Part shown: positions 30,447-30,552 of the stretch, piece by piece
How positions within the stretch are numbered: position 1 is the stretch's first letter
Layout of the letters: every line of letters begins with the position of its first letter
DNA from: Aeromicrobium sp.
Lineage (GTDB): Bacteria; Actinomycetota; Actinomycetes; Propionibacteriales; Nocardioidaceae
DNA: 41,597 nucleotides
Assembly (NCBI GenBank): GCA_008017265.1
Contig: SSHC01000015.1
Coordinates: 1 to 41,597 of the forward strand
Reading direction: 5' to 3'
Position numbers and translations under genes: made by a program
The notes under the pieces: model-generated
Seen by the model: the letters and a program-made list of their open reading frames with translations, nothing else
Database searches by the model: none
What the model was told of the DNA's origin: nothing

Positions 30447-30485
30447 CCGCGTCGAGGGGGTCCGACCTAGCGAACCTCGACGCGG
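30447..30485 (-). promoter_or_regulatory. leuA leader hairpin (LEU-element type)
   Basis: On the minus strand an 11-base perfect stem (arms 30475-30485 and 30447-30457) encloses a 17-base loop that contains the leuL stop codon. A smaller hairpin, AAGGA-CTTC-TCCTT, lies over the leucine codons just upstream. No T-run follows the stem, so this is not a simple terminator. A conserved pseudoknot called the LEU element has been described upstream of leuA in most actinobacteria (Seliverstov et al. 2005); position and content fit it. Exact pseudoknot pairing is not resolved here. Confidence 0.7.
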
Positions 30486-30514
30486 CGACCAAGGAGAAGT
30501 CCTTTGTTCCGCAT
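30467..30514 (-). CDS. leuL: leuA leader peptide
   Basis: A 15-codon reading frame MRNKGLLLGRRVEVR. Codons 6-8 are consecutive leucines (CTT CTC CTT). The stop TAG lies in the loop of the downstream hairpin, and the last codons form its 5' arm. Ribosome stalling at the leucine codons would therefore change whether the stem forms, the classic logic of amino-acid attenuation. No Shine-Dalgarno; the ATG lies about 3 bases after the predicted transcript start. Confidence 0.7.
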   Translation of the reverse strand: MRNKGLLLGRRVEVR

Positions 30515-30523
30515 GATGTTAAA

Positions 30524-30552
30524 AGCATAGCACTGAACTGCCGTGCCCCCAA
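30524..30552 (-). promoter_or_regulatory. Promoter of the leuL-leuA transcript
   Basis: On the minus strand TTGGGG (30547-30552) and TATGCT (30524-30529) are spaced by 17 bases, with TG one base ahead of the -10 box (extended -10). Transcription would start near 30517, just before the leuL ATG. Confidence 0.55.

Follow-up and report, generated by a model that had tools for sequence, protein, structure and literature searches.

A terminator-less leader-peptide element upstream of leuA in an Aeromicrobium genome and its sister elements with gene-matched codon runs

How is leuA controlled in an actinobacterium whose leuA leader holds a leucine-rich peptide and a perfect hairpin and carries no recognizable terminator? 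We addressed this question at the leuA locus of an Aeromicrobium sp., using a stretch of 41,597 nucleotides (the window). The LEU element, located upstream of actinobacterial leuA, was described in 2005 by Seliverstov et al., who leaned toward protein binding and whose text places it before leuA and in one transposase gene (PMC1262725). Since then, it has been read in two ways, either as the binding site of an unknown protein or as a codon reader. By its sequence and arrangement, the element in the window is the LEU element. With slightly better than even confidence, we propose that the LEU element is a terminator-less leader-peptide attenuator in which the ribosome would sense charged leucine tRNA, most likely acting on the initiation of leuA translation.

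On the minus strand, the region from the divergent gene (30578) to leuA reads directly as an extended -10 element, the leader ORF, a 5-nt spacer, the stem S1, the second pseudoknot strand and the Shine-Dalgarno (SD) sequence. The parts, all on the minus strand, are as follows.

30524..30532, minus strand: extended -10 element TGCTATGCT, read directly, 9 nt 5' of the leader ATG
30467..30514, minus strand: near-leaderless leader ORF of 15 codons, MRNKGLLLGRRVEVR and stop, ATG at 30514-30512 and TAG at 30469-30467, with homologous leaders in relatives
30491..30499, minus strand: Leu codon run CTT CTC CTT, the proposed sensor, read directly
30489..30495, minus strand: TCCTTGG of the Leu run, a potential partner of TTGAGGA at 30411-30405 (7 pairs, 3 of them G-U)
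30475..30485, minus strand: S1 5' arm CCGCGTCGAGG, starting 5 nt 3' of the Leu run
30458..30474, minus strand: S1 loop with the leader stop codon TAG inside, read directly
30462..30467, minus strand: pseudoknot strand 1, GGTCGG, within the S1 loop, able to pair with CCGGCC
30447..30457, minus strand: S1 3' arm CCTCGACGCGG, whose CCTCGA (30457-30452) is complementary to TTGAGG (30411-30406) at the leuA SD
30429..30434, minus strand: pseudoknot strand 2, CCGGCC, covarying in relatives
30402..30429, minus strand: predicted local hairpin CGTTTC / GGAACG holding the leuA SD, from the fold of the window
30404..30409, minus strand: leuA SD GAGGAA, read directly
28664..30397, minus strand: leuA, 2-isopropylmalate synthase, GTG start at 30397, identified by NCBIfam PRK03739.1 and TIGR00970.1, both above cut-off

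The sequence-only reading that preceded this analysis had listed the 15-codon peptide with three consecutive Leu codons, the 11-pair perfect stem with a stop codon in its loop and the extended -10 element, and each is present as it had stated. All 11 pairs of S1 are Watson-Crick pairs, and when the 123-nt leader was dinucleotide-shuffled 1000 times, a perfect stem of at least 11 pairs arose once. Folding energy was dropped as evidence for the element, since the leader is unremarkable in this respect (z -0.24; equalled by 79 of 200 shuffles); the case for the element therefore rests on conservation. A strict sigma-70 scan found no two-hexamer promoter in 30380-30600, so that the promoter is assigned from the extended -10 element only. 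In relatives, TANNNT lies 5-12 nt 5' of the leader start codon in 165 of 188 cases, compared with 5 of 749 control windows placed 40-100 nt farther upstream, and transcripts should accordingly start at the leader start codon or within a few nucleotides of it. The divergent neighbor of leuA (30578-31027, plus strand) has weak matches, below the cut-offs, to NAD(P)H:quinone oxidoreductase/flavodoxin models.

The leuA searches gave a match in 90 of 100 genomes of the family, 146 of 147 of the order and 191 of 197 of the class. We analyzed 199 leuA upstream regions from 198 genomes of the class (one genome appears twice), a selection from the listed places that leaves out matches without a gene start and part of the remainder; 33 family codes are represented among the scored elements. 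R2, a covariance model of the scaffold minus the codon run, matched 199 of 199 leuA upstream regions with a weakest E value of 0.0023, 30 of these regions having been used to build it. The Leu codons had been expected to be conserved in relatives, and a run of two to four of them anchored the leader in 190 of the 199 regions, the scaffold being present in the other nine as well. S1 was found in 189 of the 190 anchored regions, and 168 of these 189 stems consist of standard pairs throughout (11 of 11). The set of 189 behind the spacing counts that follow, like the arm-swap tests below, still includes the mis-picked arms of L007 and L008 (S1 3' arm with an insertion) and L098. The spacing from the Leu run to S1 is 5 nt in 184 and 2 nt in 5 of the 189 elements; the leader stop codon lies inside the S1 loop in all 189, and the leader tail after the Leu run has 6-10 residues (6 or 7 in 161). 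Outside the 189, four leaders of family code f16 that end in LTRP (L169, L177, L190 and L194) place the stop codon within the S1 5' arm, with S1 beginning 2 nt closer. The leader of L128 (ATG TCG TGC GCG CTT CCC CGG GTG ...) has lost the Leu run and kept the scaffold, and may be a decaying or re-targeted element.

The LEU element is absent from Rfam 15. An Rfam search of the window at gathering thresholds matched nothing except two tRNAs, and at E values up to 10 the only match, an unrelated one to GABA3, lay away from the element. Two adjacent tRNA genes occur in the window at 22273-22345 and 22386-22457 (minus strand). A phylum-wide search with R1 matched 39 of 198 genomes at an E value of 0.01; beyond the class, scores above 50 bits were confined to two genomes, both of one family, with leuA behind both matches. 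Thirteen other R1 matches outside the class scored 25.9-31.3 bits, and none of the three that were inspected (L303-L305) precedes a leucine gene; R2 matches below about 34 bits were treated as chance after inspection of one (L498).

The joint columns of S1 and the pseudoknot, in a MAFFT alignment of 45 elements, had a covariation score of 0.198 versus 0.123 in shuffles (0/500 as high). Compensatory changes in the stem were looked for in this leuA upstream alignment, and S1 had 97.2% of its cells paired and two-sided changes in 4 of its 11 pairs. In the same alignment, 53.6% of the pseudoknot cells are paired, a low value because the linker aligns poorly, and all six pairs show changes on both sides. 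An alignment-free comparison of the pseudoknot helix gave 16.56 for own strands versus 15.79 for strands swapped within families (0/200 swaps; own better in 185 of 188 elements); within single families, the preference was seen in the two largest and was absent in three small ones. For the leuB-type elements described below, the values were 20.17 for own and 15.63 for swapped strands (40 swaps, with a maximum of 16.44); the paired strands include AGAAGGCC/GGCCTTCT, CCGAGGCCA/TGGCCTCGG and GTGAGGCCC/GGGCCTCAC. A pseudoknot had been suggested from the window alone; it exists and covaries, although its partner strand at 30429-30434, outside the region first described, had not been placed.

These features support the identification made above. 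The earlier suggestion that control is not by simple termination and that this is the LEU element agrees with PMC1262725: the element lies upstream of actinobacterial leuA (NCBIfam leuA; Nocardioides, Marmoricola and Aeromicrobium loci), encodes a leader peptide with a Leu run, contains a conserved pseudoknot (GGTCGG/CCGGCC in the window) and has no terminator. Pairing of the Leu run with the SD, also part of that description, is possible in the window. That suggestion held for the element as such; the relation between S1 and the SD, and sister elements before other genes, formed no part of it.

R1 and R2 searches together with the fetched regions showed that the scaffold also occurs before leuC, second leuA copies, lone LeuA_dimer genes and leuB-ilvE. 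The leuC elements, from three genomes of one family, have LLL leaders. The LeuA_dimer-like proteins have 143-146 aa and score 26.4 and 23.9 bits against a cut-off of 24.9, and their leaders end in VLVVPRRSGV and VLAVVVTRRSGV. These stand-alone proteins (L288:3187-3615, minus strand; L290:420-857, plus strand), which follow Val-rich leaders, are possibly a regulatory subunit separate from the enzyme. Where leuB and then ilvE (NCBIfam) lie behind the scaffold, the leader in a genome that shares the window's genus code is MRKQLVVIACRGGAS, and further leaders are MRSFFVLIDRRGGAS, MRKFVVILSCRGEAT, MARQLVILSSRGEFR, MRHALILRCRGGA and MRRVVILLSRGGAR. For leuB loci we took the best 30 of the 54 family genomes with a match and the best 30 of 39 class genomes. 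The element is on the leuB strand in 29 of the best 30 of 54 in the window's family and in 4 of the best 30 of 39 elsewhere in the class, where 5 more show the element of a divergent leuA. R2, run on 15 family genomes, detected a leuA and a leuB element in all 15; the window's own genome (83.5% complete) gave no leuB match and one strong element. A search for the leuB-type leader pattern over 84,980 species returned 100 stretches, 87 of which have a LeuB motif within 1.5 kb. The pattern matches listed are mostly from Nocardioides, and also from Marmoricola, an Aeromicrobium and three Streptosporangiaceae genera; five listed records without a leader look like chance. Rfam gave no match in the nine loci with sister elements, and our searches of the open PMC literature, where a single paper connects the name LEU element with leuA, yielded no account of a leuB leader element in actinobacteria.

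The leuB leaders are long, with a median of 232 nt from the S1 3' arm to a small ORF (62 of 91 with an ORF start found). This conserved ORF of 31-45 aa, MYDMYPEWGPAQH...ALDLRDNGGQRPDDN, separates the leuB-type element from leuB in Nocardioides and also in an Aeromicrobium and a Sphaerisporangium, and has no Pfam or NCBIfam match; examples are the following.

L371:4718-4852, minus strand: small ORF before leuB
L391:3693-3824, minus strand: small ORF before leuB
L416:2624-2716, minus strand: small ORF before leuB
L431:7164-7280, plus strand: small ORF before leuB

Between S1 and the small ORF, the leuB leaders L371, L391 and L405 contain GCGCGATCCGC and CG.GATCC..G motifs (consensus of 40 leaders) that look like further hairpins. 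A downstream copy of the S1 5' arm in leuB leaders was considered as a third strand, since it pairs with the S1 3' arm better than shuffled sequence (-16.4 versus -13.4), and was rejected, since the 5' arm itself does equally well (-16.3) because the S1 arms are nearly palindromic.

The codon run matches the downstream gene: LLL before leuA, second leuA copies and leuC, a mixture of Val, Ile and Leu before leuB-ilvE and a Val-rich run before LeuA_dimer. The four codons 5' of S1 comprise 603 Leu, 7 Val and 5 Ile among 752 in leuA elements, and 37 Val, 36 Leu, 31 Ile and 12 Phe among 132 in leuB elements (L323, L325 and L335 being out of register). All three branched-chain amino acids are products of IlvE. 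Many leuB codon runs begin with Phe (FVLI; e.g., L316, L318, L330 and L366-L465), although the enzyme is named for branched-chain amino acids. A constant scaffold with gene-matched codons favors codon sensing by the ribosome over the binding of a protein to the element, which PMC1262725 preferred and which we consider improbable. A protein site would need neither a codon run that is exchanged with the gene behind the same scaffold nor a maintained reading frame with a near-leaderless start, and the pseudoknot strands vary widely in sequence while retaining their pairing. The S1 arm sequence, for its part, is conserved more strongly than pairing requires, as a bound protein would predict, and leader mutations unlike attenuation have been reported: according to PMC1262725, which cites Craster 1999, mutations of the S. 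coelicolor leuA leader had some effect, inconsistent with classical attenuation, and this counts against the explanation that we prefer.

Codon choice within the run is skewed. The last Leu codon is CTT in 172, CTC in 16 and CTG in 2 of the 190 elements, whereas in 62 leuA genes, with 2527 Leu codons in total, CTT makes up 0.55% and CTG 67.7%. The window's genome, with 32% CTC and 12% CTT among 305 Leu codons of 11 ORFs, is less extreme, so that the CTT preference is invisible from the window alone. CTA, TTA and TTG are hardly used, and CTT therefore fits pairing with the SD rather than pure rare-codon sensing. The sequence CUCCUCCUU, found at the Leu run in 91 of the 190 elements, is complementary to SD sequences generally and resembles the 3' end of 16S rRNA. 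Both this count and the preference for CTC/CTT would suit a leader in which the Leu run is only an anti-SD copy and acts as a constitutive brake or start aid that senses no amino acid. We regard such a leader as very improbable, because leuB-type runs (FVLI, VVIL and LVVI) have no such sequence and yet retain branched-chain codons, S1 and the pseudoknot.

In the attenuator that we propose, a shortage of leucine would make the ribosome wait while its A site holds the run's first Leu codon. With a usual footprint, the leading edge of the stalled ribosome would lie just 5' of S1, so that S1 and the pseudoknot could form; the S1 3' arm would then be occupied, the Leu run covered and the leuA SD free. 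With enough leucine, the ribosome would reach the stop codon in the S1 loop, keep S1 open and leave the Leu run uncovered. The SD would then be covered by the S1 3' arm in Nocardioidaceae and Propionibacteriaceae, as we name the two families from inference, or by the Leu run in other families.

Comparisons between S1 and the SD bear on this output step. The leuA SD resembles the S1 5' arm (e.g., CAGCGAGG in both), and hence the S1 3' arm is able to pair with either. Pairing of the S1 3' arm with its own SD was -10.31 kcal/mol versus -9.73 kcal/mol when swapped within families (0/500 swaps), and -12.0 versus -10.88 kcal/mol (0/500) in the window's family; a second family showed no preference (75 of 500 swaps as good), nor did the S1 5' arm with its own SD, used as a control (403 of 500 swaps as good). 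In 26 genomes of the order, the leuA SD was a better partner for the S1 3' arm than the SD of dnaJ in 24 (p 3e-5) and than the SD of recO in 18 (p 0.01), whereas the 16S anti-SD fits all three alike; L007 and L008 are left out of this comparison. A further comparison, over 100 rows with the duplicate L066 dropped, concerned the base after CCTCG and the one before CGAGG/TGAGG. These two can pair in 41 of 61 genomes of the window's family versus 24.1 expected (0/2000); the second family is uninformative (12 of 16 versus 12.0 expected), and in other families the covariation is absent (5 of 23 versus 4.2). Placed on the tree, this covarying S1 base gives five independent contrasts, three for, none against and two ties (p 0.125).

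Outside Nocardioidaceae and Propionibacteriaceae, the Leu run pairs better with the SD than does the S1 3' arm. The fold probability of this pairing, calculated with no ribosome, averages 0.61 over 188 relatives; in the window, unlike in the LEU element of PMC1262725, this base stem is weak (-6.0 kcal/mol, 3 of 7 pairs G-U, fold-model probability 0.00). The Leu run pairs no better with the SD of leuA than with that of dnaJ or recO (p 0.12 and 0.58, respectively), and its pairing was -9.92 kcal/mol for the own run, -8.93 for synonyms drawn by leuA usage and -9.11 for swapped runs. The Leu run by itself as the anti-SD was thus weakened as a candidate by the dnaJ/recO and synonymous controls. In ensemble folds with the ribosome masked, which leave out the pseudoknot, a ribosome at the first Leu codon left the SD more open than one at the stop codon did in 107 of 188 elements and less open in 27; in 54 there was no difference. 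The window's own folds show no switch (SD unpaired 0.21 at Leu1 and 0.26 at the stop) because its SD sits in the local hairpin. In the leuB leaders, a route from S1 to the SD is not obvious, given their length. Judged from sequence comparison and modeled folds, a translational output is the better supported reading, short of proof, and is least clear for the window's own sequence.

The same sensor might instead act through Rho- or pausing-dependent transcription attenuation, the position of the ribosome setting whether a stretch for Rho loading in the C/U-rich leader is hidden by S1 and the pseudoknot; we consider this conceivable but rather unlikely. There are no terminator-like sites in 30380-30600, where the features of a classical transcription attenuator (a terminator hairpin and U-run) are absent, and a T-run (at least four T within 14 nt 3' of S1) follows the stem in only 3 of 188 relatives; the absence of a T-run had been read correctly from the window. 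A Rho-dependent device would accommodate this lack of an intrinsic terminator, as it would the pyrimidine-rich UUUCCCACACUCUCUCUU located 3' of the pseudoknot in the window and the long leuB leaders, untranslated up to the small ORF, and PMC1262725 suggested Rho for mycobacterial cys leaders. For a purely transcriptional device, however, the fit between the S1 3' arm and the leuA SD, which exceeds both the family average and the control genes, would be superfluous, and the leuA leader is short (from the S1 end to the start codon, a median of 53 nt, and 49 in the window).

The element has parallels among known leaders. We know of no S1/pseudoknot scaffold in the poly-Cys short ORFs of mycobacteria, which we liken to the element by their description. 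In PMC13236596, those leaderless ORFs are cited as translation attenuation (Canestrari 2020), and they share with the element a leaderless uORF, a codon run of the regulated amino acid and the lack of a terminator. The 15-residue leuA leader LeuL1 of Streptomyces lividans, MRFGLLLLSCRGEGL, is described in PMC8079986 as leaderless and without a typical terminator; its peptide pattern is homologous, its transcript start having been measured and that in the window being inferred. Corynebacterium leuL, which also has a homologous pattern, is called transcription attenuation in PMC4046766, PMC5784534 and PMC8709942; both leaders belong to families other than the window's. The Corynebacterium ilvB-II motif (PMC10272879) and the ilvB1 attenuator (PMC13236596) likewise place a uORF containing branched-chain codons in front of a gene of the branched-chain pathway, but they end in an intrinsic terminator stem and U-run.

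From these sequence comparisons, the scaffold before leuB-ilvE, leuC, second leuA copies and LeuA_dimer genes, with a codon run that follows the gene, appears to be new here; the text of PMC1262725 mentions neither these copies nor the exchange of codons nor the match between S1 3' arm and SD. We lean, by a little, toward the view that these elements form a family of amino-acid-programmable attenuators, with a constant S1 and pseudoknot and a gene-matched codon run, in which the S1 3' arm may serve as a switchable anti-SD before leuA of Nocardioidaceae and Propionibacteriaceae. The leuB-ilvE sister elements with their exchanged codons amount to a natural specificity swap, which makes the question of a protein site or a codon reader testable by one reporter set, and a covariance model is now at hand for the element missing from Rfam. 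If the proposal is true, the anti-SD would have switched between two RNA segments across families, and most actinobacterial leucine synthesis would be run by one reusable RNA scaffold that has no terminator and no SD for its leader.
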